Assembly: GCF_900605005.1 (NCBI RefSeq)
Contig: NZ_LR027558.1
Coordinates: forward strand, 1,013,408 to 1,077,407
Source: Acidipropionibacterium timonense
Lineage (GTDB): Bacteria > Actinomycetota > Actinomycetes > Propionibacteriales > Propionibacteriaceae
DNA length: 64,000 nucleotides
Direction: 5' to 3'
A program made the position numbers and the translations under genes. Of this stretch, positions 20,897-30,039 are shown piece after piece. Numbering within the stretch: the first letter of the stretch is position 1; each line of letters starts with the position of its first letter. The notes under the pieces are model-generated. The model had not been told where the DNA came from and did not search any database. It saw nothing but the letters and a program-made list of their open reading frames with translations.

Positions 20897-21958
20897 ATGC
20901 CAGCGACGACGTCCGAACTGCTTGATCTGCTCGATCTCGAGGTTCTCGAACCGAACCTCTTCCGGGGTGCTCAGCCCGACACGAGGTGGCAGCGCACGTT
21001 CGGTGGCCAGGTGCTCGCGCAGGCTCTCGTGGCGGGGTGCCGCACGGTGGAGGACCGCAAGATCCACTCCCTGCACGCCCTCTTCCTCCACGGCGGACGC
21101 AATGACGCGCCGATCATCTACGACGTCATGAGGTTGCGTGACGGGCGCCACCTGTCCACCCGTCGGGTCGACGCCCGGCAGCACGGCCGGGTCATCTTCA
21201 CCTCCGAGTTGTCGTTCAAGACCTCCGAGGACGGGCTCGACCACTCCGATCGGGTGCCCTCGGGCATCCCCGACCCCGACGAGTGCCCGACCCTGGGCGA
21301 GGCGATGACGACGATCATGGGTCGACCCATGCCCTCGGTCTCCGAGTGGGACGCCCTCGACGTGCGGTTCGCCGGGGACGGCAGCGCCTATCGGCACCCC
21401 AACCATGCGACGCACATGAGGCTGTGGGTGCGCACGAACGCGTCACTGCCCGACGACGCCGTCACCCACCGGGCGATCCTGGCGTACCTGTCGGACATGA
21501 GCCTCATGGTTGCCTCGATCGTGCCCCATCTGGGCGCCCTGCCCCAGGGGGCGGTCGTCAACCCGGCCTCCATCGACCACGCGATGTGGTTCCACCGCAA
21601 GGCCTTCGCCGACCAGTGGATGCTCTACGACCAGGTGTCCCCGAGCGCCTCGGGGTCGCTGGGGTTCTCGGTGGGCCGACTCATGCAGGACGGTCGGCTC
21701 ATCGCCACCTGTGCCCAGGAGGGGGTCATCCGGGTGGTGCCGGCGGGGCAGGCCACGTCGCCCTTCGCGCCGGGCAGGCGCGAGGTCGGTACCGCGCCGG
21801 GCGGGCGCGAGGTCGGTACCGCGCCGGGCGGGCGCGAGGTCGGTGCCGCGCCGGGCGGGCGCGAGGTCGGTACCGCGCCGGGCGGGCGCGAGGTCGGTAC
21901 CGCGCCGGACAGGCGCGAGGTCGGTACCGCGCCGGCGGGAGGGCGCTCAGGCGAGTAG
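20897..21958 (+). CDS. tesB: Acyl-CoA thioesterase II (TesB) with repeat-derived C-terminal tail
   Basis: Double-hotdog thioesterase that hydrolyses medium/long acyl-CoA. The segments FRGAQPDTRWQRTFGGQVLAQAL, split around residues 20-43, and LHALFLHGGR are typical. The conserved end of the fold is RLIATCAQEGVIRVV (about residue 280). The remaining 65-70 residues are not TesB sequence but nine-residue repeats of REVGTAPGG, produced by six 27-bp DNA repeats. Family members are usually about 285-300 residues, so the 353-residue length is due to this tail. A weak CAGAGT -10 lies 6 bp before the ATG. The last 12 bp overlap the convergent lipid-kinase gene. Confidence 0.9.
   Translation: MPATTSELLDLLDLEVLEPNLFRGAQPDTRWQRTFGGQVLAQALVAGCRTVEDRKIHSLHALFLHGGRNDAPIIYDVMRLRDGRHLSTRRVDARQHGRVIFTSELSFKTSEDGLDHSDRVPSGIPDPDECPTLGEAMTTIMGRPMPSVSEWDALDVRFAGDGSAYRHPNHATHMRLWVRTNASLPDDAVTHRAILAYLSDMSLMVASIVPHLGALPQGAVVNPASIDHAMWFHRKAFADQWMLYDQVSPSASGSLGFSVGRLMQDGRLIATCAQEGVIRVVPAGQATSPFAPGRREVGTAPGGREVGTAPGGREVGAAPGGREVGTAPGGREVGTAPDRREVGTAPAGGRSGE
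21778..21939. repeat. Six tandem 27-bp repeats in the 3' end of tesB
   Basis: Unit starts GCGCGAGGTCGGTACCGCGC and ends CGGGCGG. Copies 1, 2 and 4 are near-identical; copy 3 has GGTGCC in place of GGTACC, and copies 5-6 vary at the end. Being a multiple of three it is translated, as REVGTAPGG, without frameshift. There are no spacers, so it is a VNTR, not a CRISPR. Confidence 0.95.
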
Positions 21959-23905: not shown

Positions 23906-24155
23906 GACAACGCCTCGAGCACCCCGCCGTCATCCCCTGACGAGGCATCGGGGTCCCAGGTATCGCCCTCAGCACAAGGATCAGACCACGGTCGTACCCG
24001 GGTCCTCGTCGGCTATGACCGACGCCGTGGCTTGCGCCGGAGGGGACCCGGTTTGGCCTCCGGGGCTTGCGGTGTCACAATGGTCTGCGCGACACTTGAC
24101 GCCTCCCGGGTGTTCTGTGTCCTGAACAGGTTCGTCCGCCTTCGAGAGGATCCCC

Positions 24156-25589
24156 GTGCCGTCTCGTTCCACGTCCAGCACCAGCAAGCCCGCTGCCGAC
24201 GAGGAGGCGAAAGCCACCAATCCCACGAAGTCGAGTTCCGCCCGCACCTCCACGACGTCGAGGACGACCCGGGCCAGGAAGACCAAGGAGCCGAGCGCAT
24301 CGACCGCCGCCGCGGCCGAGGGGTCGGCCGCCGAGGAGAAGGCCGCTGCCGCCAAGAGCCCGGCCAGGAAGAGGACGACCCGCAAGAAGTCGACCTCGAC
24401 GCGCGGCACCGCTCGCTCCAAGGCATCGTCGACGACGTCCCCGACCATCGCCGAGGCGGCGTCCGGTCAGGTCGACGTCGAGGTCTCCCGGGACGGCGAC
24501 GACGTCGTCCTCACCGTGGGAGGCAAGAAGCGCACCCTCGACGAGGTCGACGACAAGGACTACGACCCGACCGAGGCCGCCAAGGACGAGGCCGAGATCA
24601 ACAAGGAGACCCAGGGGTTCTCCCTCAACGACAACGACGACACCGACGAGCCCGAGCAGCAGGTCATGGTGGCCGGGGCCACCGCCGACCCGGTCAAGGA
24701 CTACCTCAAGCAGATCGGCAAGGTGGCCCTGCTCAACGCGGCCCAGGAGGTCGACCTGGCCAAGCGCATCGAGGCCGGGCTCTTCGCCGGTGAACAGCTG
24801 GCCGACCCCGAGGTCGACGTCCCCGACGCCGACCGTGAGGACTACGAGTGGATCGCCGAGGACGGTCGCAACGCCAAGAATCACCTGCTCGAGGCCAACC
24901 TGCGCCTCGTCGTGTCCCTGGCCAAGCGCTACACCGGCCGCGGCATGCTCTTCCTCGACCTCATCCAGGAGGGCAACCTCGGCCTCATCCGCGCCGTCGA
25001 GAAGTTCGACTACACCAAGGGCTACAAGTTCTCGACCTACGCGACGTGGTGGATCAAGCAGGCCATCACCCGCGCCATGGCCGACCAGGCCCGGACCATC
25101 CGCATCCCGGTGCACATGGTCGAGGTCATCAACAAGCTGGCCCGCGTCCAACGTCAGATGCTCCAGGACCTCGGTCGCGAACCCACCCCCGAGGAGCTCG
25201 CCAAGGAACTCGACATGACCCCCGAGAAGGTCGTCGAGGTCCAGAAGTACGGGCGTGAACCGATCAGCCTGCACACCCCGCTGGGTGAGGACGGGGACAG
25301 CGAGTTCGGCGACCTCATCGAGGACTCGGAGGCCATCGTGCCGGCCGACGCGGTGAACTTCACCCTCCTCCAGGAGCAGTTGCACGACGTCCTCGACACC
25401 CTGTCGGAGCGCGAGGCCGGGGTCGTGAGCATGCGCTTCGGCCTCACCGACGGCCAGCCGAAGACCCTCGACGAGATCGGCAAGGTCTACGGCGTCACCC
25501 GGGAGCGGATCCGTCAGATCGAGTCGAAGACGATGAGCAAGCTGCGTCACCCGTCACGCTCCCAGGTGCTGCGAGACTACCTCGACTGA
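24156..25589 (+). CDS. sigA: Principal RNA polymerase sigma factor SigA (RpoD)
   Basis: Housekeeping sigma factor. The first 170 residues are a Ser/Thr/Lys/Ala-rich low-complexity extension typical of actinobacterial SigA. Region 1.2 begins [21 protein letters not shown], split at about residue 175. Region 2.4 has [20 protein letters not shown], and region 4.2 has [20 protein letters not shown]. The 477-residue product starts with GTG at 24156, 5 bp after GAGAGGA. The terminal codons (LRDYLD, stop) recur as a direct repeat at 26994-27020, bracketing the next two genes. That suggests this 3' end was rebuilt by integration of a foreign element. Confidence 0.97.
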
Positions 25590-25593
25590 TCGG
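25567..25593 (+). repeat. Left direct repeat (putative att site) in the sigA 3' end
   Basis: Covers the last six sigA codons, the stop codon and four following bases. It shares 24 of 27 bases with 26994-27020, in identical runs TGCTGCG, GAC, ACCTCGACTGA and CGG. Similarity ends abruptly on both sides. Confidence 0.7.
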
Positions 25594-25609
25594 CCTCCCG
25601 TCATCGACA

Positions 25610-25720
25610 AGGAATTGTGAACGTGATTCCTCACTGTCTCCATCTGCCGGCGGCAGCGACATGGTGTCCCGCGCGTGTTAATCTAGGCACGTATGTCTTT
25701 GTGTGGTCATGTGGGAGGTG
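25610..25720 (+). promoter_or_regulatory. Probable promoter and operator of the Panacea-GNAT cassette
   Basis: TAATCT (25679-25684) is a good -10; its -35 is poor. It is flanked by CGTG/CACG arms. Further upstream an inverted repeat AGGAAT/ATTCCT (25610-25631, 10-base loop) could be an operator or the sigA terminator. The Shine-Dalgarno sequence GGGAGGTG (25713-25720) fixes the start at 25727. Confidence 0.4.
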
Positions 25721-25726
25721 GACGTC

Positions 25727-26320
25727 ATGACAAGCGTTTTCGATATCGCGGCAGAGTTCATCGACCGCAGTGGCGGTGTGATTGAGACTGTCAAGCTGCA
25801 GAAGCTCTGCTTCTACGCTTTCGGCTGGTACGCCCACCTGACCGGTGAGCCGCTGTTCGGTGAGACTTTCTACGCCATGGAGTACGGGCCCGTCGTGGGG
25901 GAGCTGCTGAGCGCACATGCCAAGCAGAGGACCGTGGGCGCCCGGATGATCCAGGATCAACGCGAGGCTCGTCAGGATGAGCGCGAGGAGTTGGACCCTT
26001 ACAAGAAGGCCGTGCTCGATGCTGTCTGGGCTGTCTACGGTGACAAGGACCGCTGGAAGCTCGTTGACCTGACGCACGAAGAGTCCGTGTGGTGCGAGGC
26101 TTGGGATTCGCGTCGTCCGGGCACCAAGCGCGGTGACCTGGCTCGTGAAGACGTGATCGCGTACTTCCTCGACCGTCAGCCCAGGTCGAGCGAGCAACTG
26201 GATCTCCCGCCGGCGATGATCTCCCGAGCATCGGCCGATGAGTTGACCGCGATTGAGGCGGAGGCCGAGGTGCATCGTCCGTTCGTGGATGCGGTGCGCG
26301 CGTTCCGCTACGCCTCGTGA
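25727..26320 (+). CDS. Panacea-domain (DUF4065, SocA-like) putative antitoxin
   Basis: A 197-residue soluble protein. Residues about 20-60 (VKLQKLCFYAFGWYAHLTGE, then FYAMEYGPVVGEL) are the hallmark of the Panacea/SocA domain, known from phage and prophage genes, the Caulobacter antitoxin SocA and the PanAT toxin-antitoxin systems, where one domain neutralises many unrelated toxins. The rest is helical and charged, with no DNA-binding motif I can recognise. It uses more A/T-rich codons than its neighbours. The ATG at 25727 follows GGGAGGTG; the upstream in-frame ATG at 25703 lacks a ribosome site. Its stop overlaps the next gene start as GTGA, the usual coupling of antitoxin then toxin. Confidence 0.8.
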   Translation: MTSVFDIAAEFIDRSGGVIETVKLQKLCFYAFGWYAHLTGEPLFGETFYAMEYGPVVGELLSAHAKQRTVGARMIQDQREARQDEREELDPYKKAVLDAVWAVYGDKDRWKLVDLTHEESVWCEAWDSRRPGTKRGDLAREDVIAYFLDRQPRSSEQLDLPPAMISRASADELTAIEAEAEVHRPFVDAVRAFRYAS

Positions 26321-26904
26321 CCGAGCAGCTCGCCGCTTTCCTGGCGAATGCCGGGCTACAGCTCCGCAAGATGGACGAAGACCACTACGTGGACTTCTTC
26401 GATTGCGGCCGCGACGAGAAGATGGACAAGTGGTTCAGCCAGACCGCGCTCAAGTGGCAGCAAGAGGACATGTGCGCGGTGTGGGTGCTGTCCCCGGCTG
26501 ACCGCCCGACCGATGCTCTCGGCTTCTTCACCCTCAGCGCGCACCAGATCGTGCCCAGCAACGTGGCGAAGGGCGACAAGGCGGCGGAGCCGTCCAACAA
26601 GGGGTGGGTGAACGGTCTCCTGCAGCCGTTCCCGGCCCAGCTCCTCGGCAAGTTCGCCCTCCACGCGGACGAGCAGGGCAAGGGGCTGGGTCAGGTCTTG
26701 ATGACGTGCGTCTACGCCAAGCACGTGGAGGCGGCTGACGCGGCCGGGGCCAAGTTCCTCGTGGTGGACGTTCGAGAAGACGATCTGGTGGCCTATTACC
26801 GAGACCGCTTCAAGTTCGTGCGCTCAGGCCTGGTTGGCGACATGGCACAGATGTACCGGCCCACGTCGGTGATCCGGAAGGAGTTGGCTGCCATCCTGGC
26901 CTGA
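26317..26904 (+). CDS. TacT/AtaT-type GNAT acetyltransferase, putative toxin
   Basis: A 195-residue GNAT-fold protein with the layout of tRNA-acetylating toxins. Near the N-terminus FDCGRDEKMDKWFSQTAL corresponds to the F-x-C/S-G...LDxWL segment of TacT. LGFFTLSAHQI is the beta-strand equivalent of the family GFYSLA motif. The acetyl-CoA loop is DEQGKGLGQVLM, and the conserved tyrosine lies in LVAYYRDRFKF. Such toxins acetylate aminoacyl-tRNAs and stop translation; the usual partner is a ribbon-helix-helix antitoxin. Here the partner is a Panacea protein overlapping by 4 bp. A C-terminal extension of about 25 residues is unusual. Toxicity is inferred. Confidence 0.78.
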   Translation: MTEQLAAFLANAGLQLRKMDEDHYVDFFDCGRDEKMDKWFSQTALKWQQEDMCAVWVLSPADRPTDALGFFTLSAHQIVPSNVAKGDKAAEPSNKGWVNGLLQPFPAQLLGKFALHADEQGKGLGQVLMTCVYAKHVEAADAAGAKFLVVDVREDDLVAYYRDRFKFVRSGLVGDMAQMYRPTSVIRKELAAILA

Positions 26905-26993
26905 ACCGGGAGTCACCTTCCACCGTATTGATGGCCGAGTGCTACCTCATGGGTTCGCCTGTTCGGTGGCGTTGCACCATGCACAGCCGGTCC

Positions 26994-27020
26994 TGCTGCG
27001 TGACCACCTCGACTGACCGG
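26994..27020 (+). repeat. Right direct repeat (putative att site), remnant of a sigA 3' end
   Basis: Reads as the codons LLRDHLD-stop, versus VLRDYLD-stop in sigA. It differs at three of 27 bases. It lies in the 168-bp gap between the GNAT toxin and the next gene, where no gene would otherwise place it. Confidence 0.7.
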
Positions 27021-27072
27021 AGAACCGGTCCGATCGGCCTTGTCGGCCCCGTCCGGCCGCTAGGCTCTGGAC

Positions 27073-27612
27073 ATGGACACCGCGAGCAGTGCTGCCGGGC
27101 AGGGTCCCGGACGATATGTGGTACGCAGGGCGACCGATGCGGACATCCCCGATGCTGCGTCGGTCCAGGCGGCGTGCCTGCGTGAGATCGGCCACGGGGT
27201 CATCCCCGAGGACGTCCTGGCCGACCTCACCGGGCCCGACACCGTCGCCTCGACGATCGACCAGTGGAGAGGACTCGCCGACGCCGGCGCGGACCTGTGG
27301 GTGCTCGCCCAGCAGTCCGACGGCAAGGTCGTCGGGGTCGCCATGGCTCAACGCAGCCAGGGCACGGACGCCCCGACCCCGCTCGAGCTGGCCACCATCC
27401 ACGTCCTGCCCGGGGCGCGGACGGAGGGAGCGGCGGACCACCTGCTGAGGTCGGCGATCGATGACGAACCGGCCTTCCTCTGGGTCATCAGCGGCAACGA
27501 CCGCGCGGTGAAGTTCTTCGAGAACAACGGCTTCCGGCTCGACGAGTCCGAGGGGTCCCGGGACGACTCCCTCGGCGGGATCCCGCTGCAACGCATGGTG
27601 CGCGGGATCTGA
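27073..27612 (+). CDS. GNAT-family N-acetyltransferase (chromosomal)
   Basis: A 179-residue single GNAT domain: N-terminal RRATDADIPDAASVQAACLRE, central LWVLAQQSDGKVVGVAM, acetyl-CoA region LELATIHVLPGARTEGAADH and C-terminal NDRAVKFFENNGFRLDE, which is the typical beta6-7 motif. The substrate is unknown. It is unlike the TacT-type protein next door and has normal high-GC codon use, so it belongs to the chromosomal backbone rather than the island. TAGGCT (27061-27066) lies 6 bp before the ATG, giving a leaderless transcript. It is convergent with the small gene at 27618, with only 5 bp between. Confidence 0.8.
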   Translation: MDTASSAAGQGPGRYVVRRATDADIPDAASVQAACLREIGHGVIPEDVLADLTGPDTVASTIDQWRGLADAGADLWVLAQQSDGKVVGVAMAQRSQGTDAPTPLELATIHVLPGARTEGAADHLLRSAIDDEPAFLWVISGNDRAVKFFENNGFRLDESEGSRDDSLGGIPLQRMVRGI

Positions 27613-27617
27613 GCCCC

Positions 27618-27815
27618 TCAGGAGATCCGGGCCGTCTCGTCCTGGATGCGCAGGGCGACCTGCTTGAGCCGGTCCTCGTGGGCGCGCGCGTGGTGGGCGC
27701 AGAAGAGCAGCTCCCCACCGTTGTGCAGGGTGACGCGGTAGTAGGCCTGTGCTCCGCAGCGGTCGCAGCGATCCGCGGCGGTGAGCTCGCGGTCCTCGAT
27801 CATCATGGTCTCCAT
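27618..27815 (-). CDS. Small zinc-ribbon-like protein (DUF7455 type)
   Basis: A 65-residue protein with paired metal ligands: DRCDRCGAQAYYRV and LLFCAHHARAHEDRL (CxxC and CxxH). This matches a small conserved actinobacterial family encoded beside type II topoisomerase subunit genes. Function is unknown; a zinc-dependent structural or nucleic-acid-binding role is likely. The ATG at 27815 follows GAGGAGGAAG. It is transcribed away from parE. Confidence 0.75.
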   Translation of the reverse strand: METMMIEDRELTAADRCDRCGAQAYYRVTLHNGGELLFCAHHARAHEDRLKQVALRIQDETARIS

Positions 27816-27930
27816 GGCTTCCTCCTCGATGCCGACGGTACAACGTCGCGCCGACCGTTTCTCTTCCCGGGCCGGAGGGCCGGCCGCGCAGGCCGATTCC
27901 CGGGGGAGTGGACCGTTAGACTGTGCCGCT

Positions 27931-30039
27931 GTGACGACGCATTCGACGACCCCCCAGGCGAGCCGGGACTACGGGGCCCGCAACATCCTCGTCCTGGAGG
28001 GGCTCGAGGCGGTGCGCAAGCGGCCCGCCATGTACATCGGGTCGACCGACACCCGCGGCCTCATGCACTGTCTGTGGGAGATCTTCGACAACGGCGTCGA
28101 CGAGGCCCTGGCCGGGTTCGGTCGTCGCATCGGCGTCACCCTGGAGGCTGACGGATCGATCCGCGTCGCCGACGAGGGCCGAGGCATCCCGGTCGACATC
28201 GAACCGCGTACCGGGCTGGCCGGCGTCGAGGTCGTCTACACCAAGCTCCACGCCGGCGGGAAGTTCGGCGGCGGAGCGTACAACGCCTCCGGTGGCCTCC
28301 ACGGGGTCGGCGCCTCGGTCGTCAACGCCCTGTCCTCGCGCCTGGACGTCGAGGTCGACCGCAAGGGAACGACCTGGGCCATGAGCTTCCGGCGCGGGGT
28401 GCCCGGCGTCTTCGACGGGGAGGGACCGGATGCTCCCTTCGAGCCCCGGTCCGGGGTGCGCAAGGTGGGGCGCGCCGAGCGCGGCACGACCGGGACCCGT
28501 GTACGGTACTGGCCCGATCGCCAGATCTTCCTTCCCGACGCCGCCCTGTCCTGGTCCAAGCTCGTCGACCGCGCCCGCCAGACGGCCTTCCTCGTCCCCG
28601 GGCTGACGATCGAGGTGACCGACCTGCGGGGCGTGCAGACCGACCCGGAGACGGGGGAGCGGCTCGACCAGGTGACCGAGACGATGCGCTTCGACGGCGG
28701 CATCTCCGAGTTCGCCGACTTCCTGGCCGGCGACGAGCCGCTCACCGAGGTGCTACGCCTGCAGGGCTCGGACTCCTTCACCGAGACCGTCCCCATGCTC
28801 GACGAGACTGGCCGGATGACCCCGACCGACGTCGACCGCGACCTCGAGGTCGACATCGCCTTGCGCTGGGGCACGGGCTACGAGACGACGGTGCGGTCCT
28901 TCGTCAACATCATCGCCACCCCCAAGGGTGGCACCCATGTCCAGGGGTTCGAACAGGGCCTGCTCCGGGCCTTCACGGCGTCCCTCGACGGCACCCGGCT
29001 GCTCAAGAACTCCGAGGAGATCGTCAAGGACGACGTCCTCGAGGGACTCACCGCCGTCGTCACCGTCCGGCTGGCCGAGCCGCAGTTCGAGGGCCAGACC
29101 AAGGAGGTCCTCGGCACCCCGCCGGTACGACGTCTGGTGAGCCGGATCGTCGAGACCGAACTGTCGGACTTCCTCACCTCGAGCAAGGCGGCCGTCAAGC
29201 CGGTCGCCCGGGCTCTCCTGGAGAAGGTCGTCAATGCCTCCCGCACCCGGGTGGCGGCCCGTGCGCACAAGGAGAACCAGCGGCGCAAGAATGCCCTCGA
29301 GTCGTCCCACCTGCCGCCCAAGCTCAAGGACTGCCGGTCCTCGGACCCCGACCTCACCGAGCTCTTCATCGTCGAGGGTGACTCGGCCCTGGGCACCGCC
29401 AACGTCGCCCGCGACTCGGAGTACCAGGCCCTGCTGCCGATCCGGGGCAAGATCCTCAACGTCCAGAAGGCCGATCTCGGCGCCATGCTCAAGAACGCCG
29501 AGTGCGCCTCCATCATCCAGGTAGTCGGCGCCGGGTCGGGCAAGTCCTTCGACCTCGACCAGGCCCGCTACGGCAAGGTCATCTTCATGGCCGACGCCGA
29601 CTCCGACGGGGCCCACATCCGCACCCTCCTGGCCACCCTCTTCTTCACCTACATGAGGCCGATGGTCGAGGCCGGCAGGGTCTACTCGGCCGTCCCCCCG
29701 CTGCACCGGTTCGAGCTCGTCAACCCCAAGCGGGGGATGGACAGGTACATCTACACGTACACCGACGCCGAGTACCAGCGCACCCTGGCCCAGCTCACCA
29801 AGAAGGGCGTCCGGTTCAAGGAGCCGCAGCGGTACAAGGGACTGGGCGAGATGGACGCCTCCCAGCTCAAGGAGACGACGATGGACCGCCGTCACCGGAT
29901 GCTGCGGCGGATCACGGTGGACGACGTCACCGAGGCCGAGCAGACCTTCGAGATGCTCATGGGGCACGACGTGGCTCCCCGCAAGGAGTTCCTCGTCCAG
30001 GGGGCGTACCGACTCGACAGCCAGCAGATCGACGCCTGA
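27931..30039 (+). CDS. parE: DNA topoisomerase IV subunit B (ParE)
   Basis: ATPase subunit of the chromosome-decatenating type II topoisomerase. The N-terminal GHKL domain has NILVLEGLEAVRKRPAMYIG and DEGRGIPV; the transducer has KGGTHVQGFE. The Toprim domain has LFIVEGDSALGTANVARDS and FMADADSDGAHIRTL; the C-terminus has RYKGLGEMDASQLKETTMD. EGDSALG instead of the EGDSAGG of GyrB is normal for actinobacterial ParE. Length is 702 residues from GTG 27931. The frame is open upstream to 27781, but homology and a TAGACT -10 (27917-27922) support the GTG. The partner parC lies 3.4 kb away on the opposite strand. Confidence 0.93.
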   Translation: MTTHSTTPQASRDYGARNILVLEGLEAVRKRPAMYIGSTDTRGLMHCLWEIFDNGVDEALAGFGRRIGVTLEADGSIRVADEGRGIPVDIEPRTGLAGVEVVYTKLHAGGKFGGGAYNASGGLHGVGASVVNALSSRLDVEVDRKGTTWAMSFRRGVPGVFDGEGPDAPFEPRSGVRKVGRAERGTTGTRVRYWPDRQIFLPDAALSWSKLVDRARQTAFLVPGLTIEVTDLRGVQTDPETGERLDQVTETMRFDGGISEFADFLAGDEPLTEVLRLQGSDSFTETVPMLDETGRMTPTDVDRDLEVDIALRWGTGYETTVRSFVNIIATPKGGTHVQGFEQGLLRAFTASLDGTRLLKNSEEIVKDDVLEGLTAVVTVRLAEPQFEGQTKEVLGTPPVRRLVSRIVETELSDFLTSSKAAVKPVARALLEKVVNASRTRVAARAHKENQRRKNALESSHLPPKLKDCRSSDPDLTELFIVEGDSALGTANVARDSEYQALLPIRGKILNVQKADLGAMLKNAECASIIQVVGAGSGKSFDLDQARYGKVIFMADADSDGAHIRTLLATLFFTYMRPMVEAGRVYSAVPPLHRFELVNPKRGMDRYIYTYTDAEYQRTLAQLTKKGVRFKEPQRYKGLGEMDASQLKETTMDRRHRMLRRITVDDVTEAEQTFEMLMGHDVAPRKEFLVQGAYRLDSQQIDA

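Follow-up and report, generated by a model that had tools for sequence, protein, structure and literature searches.

Which antitoxin accompanies a TacT-type acetyltransferase toxin when a DUF1778 antitoxin gene is missing beside it? This question is raised by two overlapping genes within a 64,000-nucleotide stretch of Acidipropionibacterium timonense DNA (contig NZ_LR027558.1, positions 1,013,408 to 1,077,407; the whole stretch is hereafter called the window). The first gene encodes a Panacea-domain protein and the second a GNAT protein. The pair was concluded to be very probably a toxin-antitoxin operon of the PanA-GNAT kind (VcaA-VcaT, clade C), in which the GNAT protein would acetylate charged tRNA and the Panacea protein would silence it. 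Computed support for this conclusion comes from the pairing itself, the gene overlap, the families of both proteins, the fold of the GNAT protein, the ancestry shared with 15 further loci, the co-variation of toxin and antitoxin, and the absence of a DUF1778-like gene.

The two genes and their products

The Panacea (DUF4065/SocA-like) antitoxin gene is located at 25727..26320 on the plus strand and encodes 197 amino acids from an ATG start, which is preceded by a GGGAGG-like site as judged by eye. A longer version of this open reading frame (ORF) begins at an upstream GTG start at 25703. The TacT/AtaT-type GNAT toxin gene, at 26317..26904 on the same strand, encodes 195 amino acids from a GTG start within the stop of the antitoxin gene. 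Both the ORF list and the sequence indicated that stop and start are joined in a 4-bp overlap, GTGA, exactly as described in the initial annotation, and all motifs cited there were present in the sequence. A terminator-like hairpin lies upstream of the antitoxin gene at 25673-25692, for which 0.7 was expected by chance in the region. A promoter scan of the region of the pair detected no promoter, and PADLOC gave no match for the pair, the GNAT protein included.

The first product matched Pfam PF13274 (SocA_Panacea) at E 1.6e-19 and 71.3 bits against a cut-off of 25.7, confirming its earlier assignment to DUF4065/Panacea. Its conserved motifs are KLQKLCFYAFGW and GPVVG, the GPV motif lying in the context AMEYGPVVGE; no second domain was detected by the Pfam scan. 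It also matched two phage protein families without known function, phrog_1281 at E 3.7e-33. The AlphaFold model of this protein reached a predicted local distance difference test score (pLDDT) of 85.4. In comparison with PDB, no match was found for the model at E 0.001 or better, nor for the sequence at E 0.01.

The second product matched phrog_1758, an acetyltransferase family, at E 1.6e-20. Among PDB chains, its sequence matched 9ilr_A (E 4.8e-10), 7f37_B (E 3.5e-07), and 7ak7_A (E 3.9e-05), the entries of which are named as structures of GmvT, AtaT2, and TacT2, respectively; with a threshold of E 0.001, a profile from six members of the clade described below found 15 PDB sequences. The predicted fold was matched far better by TacT3, KacT, and AtaT than by non-toxin acetyltransferases, and toxin structures ranked above all others in two structure comparisons. 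The TacT layout claimed for the second gene was borne out by both sequence and fold, and the protein groups with toxin GNATs; clustering with non-toxin acetyltransferases, which the initial annotation had named as a refutation, was not observed.

The acetyl-CoA loop QGKGLG (26665..26694, plus strand), identified from the sequence and alignments, fits the pattern Q/RxxGxG/A, the canonical motif of this loop. Of the residues Tyr160-Tyr161 (26794..26799, plus strand), Tyr161 was aligned with the TacT family tyrosine, which presumably plays a catalytic role in that family. In the structure alignment, residues 11-195 of the GNAT model paired with residues 3-174 of TacT3, and residues 12-190 with residues 3-172 of KacT. 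Because these two structures align across the last 25 or so residues, the C-terminus is not a clade-specific extension, and the proposal that it forms a new docking surface was abandoned. The GNAT protein differs from three solved toxins by a short N-terminal helix and by the loop around 78-104, which is about ten residues longer than theirs. As five of the 16 clade members (L237, L247, L248, L250, and L252) have a short 78-104 loop, it does not qualify as an obligatory docking surface, and no such role is claimed for it.

Relatives of the pair and exchange of the antitoxin

The search for DUF4065-GNAT adjacency across genomes, suggested in the initial annotation, gave 15 loci besides the window, making 16 in all with identical gene order. 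Since the same pair and order recur in these 15 loci, the arrangement is not due to chance. Scanning of genome contigs for the pattern KLQKLCFY gave 99 stretches, the first 80 of which were examined for Panacea and GNAT: a Panacea match was found in 16, and five of these 16 had an adjoining GNAT. The pair in L228 was added by a later scan of all loci. Hosts of the pair include two Actinomycetaceae metagenome-assembled genomes (L142 and L175), Actinotignum sanguinis (L176), Arthrobacter sp. UM1 (L182), Actinomyces naeslundii (L214), and Microbacterium maritypicum (L228). The last is the nearest relative, with 64% (GNAT) and 58% (antitoxin) identity to the window pair; identity of the window antitoxin to the 15 antitoxins adjoining GNATs ranges from 36 to 58%. 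Within the family of A. sanguinis, the clade profile matched 37 of 213 genomes at E 1e-10 or better. Thirty of the 39 matched places were examined, and 12 genomes were found to carry the pair, four known from the KLQKLCFY scan and eight new (L243 and L246-L252, with L249 and L251 being near-copies). A divergent pair, L256, and a fragment, L257, came from the same family. A further pair is carried on an IMG/VR contig (L237), the host of which is not stated.

The window GNAT as a single query against genome contigs and viral contigs was unproductive, as were the window Panacea protein, alignment A3, and the clade alignment A5 against viral contigs. The GNAT protein matched 547 plasmid and 6 phage records and the Panacea protein 7 and 33, respectively, with less than 60% identity at the best place of every record for both proteins. 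The Panacea search covered 78 of the 84 GNAT-matching genomes (all but G128, G249, G263, G474, G490, and G557). Panacea was found in 11 of the 78, and comparison of positions by eye showed an adjoining GNAT in the window genome only; for the 29 Panacea loci besides that of the window, no GNAT match was found within about 1.5 kb on each side. With adjacency in one of 11 genomes and in none of 29 loci, the pair is therefore rare in the phylum at large.

We found 122 GNAT-like ORFs, and 115 were analysed after exclusion of scores below 100 bits, fragments, and L257. A quick IQ-TREE search was performed with 80 GNATs and 136 columns, including 17 Panacea-linked, 8 unlabelled, and 55 of 90 DUF1778-labelled rows. 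In this tree, 16 Panacea-linked GNATs formed one clade with an SH-aLRT support of 99. Distances between GNATs and between antitoxins at these 16 loci were correlated at r 0.856, a value reached by none of 5000 permutations. The DUF1778 label was given by a profile built in three rounds from one TacA1 protein, which is looser than Pfam. With this looser profile, a DUF1778-like gene was found to adjoin 90 of 98 other GNATs and none of 18 Panacea-linked loci. The TacA1-seeded profile likewise gave no match in six frames of window positions 24001-29000. Pfam itself called TacA1 in 51 of 128 scanned neighbour ORFs (184 listed, mostly two per locus). The replacement of DUF1778 by Panacea beside a TacT-type GNAT, as inferred initially, is supported by the fold, the tree, and the DUF1778 search. 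The clade, the co-variation, and the DUF1778 absence would be read most simply as a change of antitoxin that took place once, in the main clade's ancestor.

The pair at L256:765-1977 is a divergent case. Its GNAT resembles DUF1778-linked GNATs, with a score of 114.6 bits for the general GNAT profile against about 59 for the clade profile, and was placed among them in the quick tree. A single clade of all 17 was nevertheless not rejected, its likelihood exceeding that of the free tree (p-AU, approximately unbiased test, 0.638). L256 may possibly represent a second, independent Panacea-GNAT pairing.

Conservation of the active site within the main clade is uneven. The TacT-aligned tyrosine is kept in all 16 members. 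The Q/RxxGxG/A loop motif is kept in 6 of 16, the window among them, versus 73 of 90 DUF1778-linked and 5 of 8 unlabelled GNATs; for 6/16 versus 73/90, Fisher p was 0.0007 by a statistic that ignores relatedness. The ten members without the motif are L176, L214, L228, L237, L243, L246, L249, L250, L251, and L252, some of which carry an inserted residue with the tyrosine still present.

Comparison with known systems and rival explanations

According to PMC9177977 (2022), clade C GNAT toxins adjoin DUF4065 proteins, and for VcaA-VcaT of Varibaculum cambriense, VcaT arrests growth, VcaA relieves the arrest, and the main target of acetylation by VcaT is Gly-tRNA-Gly. The initial annotation knew of no described example; clade C and the tested VcaA-VcaT pair rule out that the Panacea-GNAT pairing is new. 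In the same paper, the authors termed VcaA-VcaT a new family, left its type (II or VI) undecided, and proposed one antitoxin change for the clade C ancestor. Beside this paper, none evidently on a Panacea-GNAT pair was found in the open-licence PMC literature. In PMC8832971, complexes are described between Panacea antitoxins and toxins of five unrelated kinds, and the GPV motif is required for neutralisation; the words 'GNAT' and 'acetyltransferase' are absent from its main text.

VcaA-VcaT and the window pair both consist of a TacT-type GNAT and an adjoining Panacea/DUF4065 antitoxin gene in an actinobacterial host; they also share the absence of a DUF1778 antitoxin and the grouping of Panacea-linked GNATs in one clade. 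They differ in organism, and VcaT has been shown to be toxic, to be neutralised, and to acetylate Gly-tRNA-Gly, whereas the window pair is known from sequence and model. The DUF1778-GNAT systems TacAT, AtaRT, KacAT, and GmvAT share with it the toxin fold, the motifs, and the antitoxin-first operon, but have a ribbon-helix-helix DNA binder as antitoxin instead of a Panacea protein. The DUF1778 ribbon-helix-helix antitoxin blocks its toxin with the C-terminus, in agreement with the titles of structure entries. Other PanAT pairs, as described in PMC8832971, have a Panacea antitoxin with the GPV motif in common with the window, but their toxins (toxSAS, Fic/Doc, RNase-like, and membrane toxins) are unrelated to GNAT. 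SocAB of Caulobacter crescentus, of type VI, also has a Panacea-type antitoxin; its toxin SocB, however, is a replication toxin and not a GNAT, and the window Panacea protein falls far below the SocA model cut-off.

In the proposed operon, the antitoxin would be made just before the GNAT protein from one message, on which the stop codon of the first gene overlaps the start codon of the second. As the TacT-type fold, the motifs, and the example of VcaT suggest, the GNAT protein would use acetyl-CoA to acetylate the amino group of a charged tRNA, with Gly-tRNA-Gly as the most likely target, and translation would stop. Judging from VcaA and from Panacea pairs with demonstrated complexes, the Panacea protein would bind the GNAT protein and keep it inactive. 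The trigger that frees the toxin could be guessed to be phage infection as the most plausible event.

Several points weigh against the toxin-antitoxin interpretation. The window pair is known here from its sequence and predicted structure. It was assigned to clade C by the type of its antitoxin, its relatives among actinobacteria, and its place in the tree rather than by comparison with the VcaT sequence, and a single protein, VcaT, is the source of the Gly target. The tree was built from only 136 columns, and its support values come from a quick search. No Pfam or NCBIfam model, including curated toxin models, matched the GNAT protein, and four lesser AlphaFold models of it had mean pLDDT of 68-77. 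Since the loop motif is missing in 10 of 16 clade GNATs, activity is not proven by clade membership alone; some members may not be active acetyltransferases, though the window GNAT keeps the motif.

An improbable alternative is a SocA-like type VI pair, in which the Panacea protein would go beyond mere blocking and hand the GNAT protein to ClpXP for degradation. SocA, a Panacea protein, is indeed a ClpX adaptor as stated in PMC9177977, and the NCBIfam SocA model matched the window protein at E 9.7e-12, but the 44.9 bits of this match fall short of the 190 set as cut-off for a SocA equivalog. The two papers also speak against degradation: the amount of VcaT in E. coli was comparable with and without VcaA (PMC9177977), and stable complexes were formed in five other PanA pairs (PMC8832971). 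We consider it highly improbable that the module is decayed or inactive and retained by drift, as the missing GNAT in all eight congeners, the relic of a different Panacea at the equivalent place in L101, and the loss of the loop motif from several clade members might suggest; both window ORFs are open, comparison with L228 showed a codon-position pattern of purifying selection in both, and the GPV motif, loop motif, and tyrosine are all kept. That the GNAT protein is a metabolic or protein acetyltransferase, encoded behind a Panacea gene by chance, is hardly credible. The lack of a matching curated toxin model and the ordinary GNAT gene next to the pair would fit such an enzyme, but toxin structures top both structure comparisons, pairing and order are kept at 16 loci of one clade with co-variation, and the nearest families outside the clade mostly have DUF1778-like antitoxin genes.

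Genomic setting and meaning

The toxin-antitoxin pair lies in an interval, 25590..27072, between a principal-sigma-factor-like ORF (24156-25589, named by eye) and a second GNAT gene (27073-27612, Pfam Acetyltransf_1), which is followed by a gyrB-like ORF, also named by eye. No match of the GNAT toxin was found in the eight other genomes of the genus, and the content of the interval varies from species to species (window 25590-27072 versus L101-L108). The distance from the sigma gene to the second GNAT gene is about 330 bp, with no pair, in L104, versus 1483 bp in the window, and six other congeners have 1.8-4.7 kb of other ORFs in between. For L106, the 7.1 kb examined did not include the sigma gene. 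The interval of L101 holds a broken relic of a different, GepA-like Panacea. Since the content differs among congeners, the site is variable, and the window pair is, by this comparison of sequences, a putative recent islet or survivor there. Elsewhere in the window, at 21766-21939, a G+C-rich unit of 27 bp is repeated in tandem, with 6.5 copies and 94% matches.

On the IMG/VR contig, the PanA-GNAT pair is found within a temperate-phage lysogeny module (L237:1292-6001). It is flanked on one side by a tyrosine integrase (phrog_1, 8.4e-61; PF00589) and on the other by an M78 metalloprotease, two helix-turn-helix regulators, and an anti-repressor (phrog_130, 1.3e-86). In one Actinomycetaceae genome, about 0.5 kb separates the pair from the downstream L142:4523-7825, which encodes a 1101-amino-acid SNF2/helicase protein with PLD-like and type III restriction-like (ResIII) parts. 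Both settings fit, and do not show, an anti-phage role. A bolder idea, possible but rather doubtful, is that PanA-GNAT pairs might be phage-exchanged devices of actinobacteria for defence or superinfection exclusion, the Panacea protein also being a sensor that would release the toxin on infection, and the 10 of 16 members without the loop motif having changed chemistry or being non-catalytic partners under the same antitoxin.

The window pair is a further member of the kind described in 2022 in PMC9177977, with new detail on its occurrence: a copy in a phage lysogeny module, loss of the loop motif in 10 of 16 members, and the islet in the window, the GNAT of which is missing in all eight congeners. 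A further actinobacterial lineage thereby confirms that one toxin family can exchange its DNA-binding DUF1778 antitoxin for a Panacea antitoxin. The exchange apparently took place once for the main clade, and toxin and antitoxin then changed together. The 16 loci can serve to study how a GNAT is recognised by Panacea, and the phage-borne copy is a direct place for testing a role in phage defence. The loss of the loop motif in many members raises the question whether tRNA acetylation persists in them.
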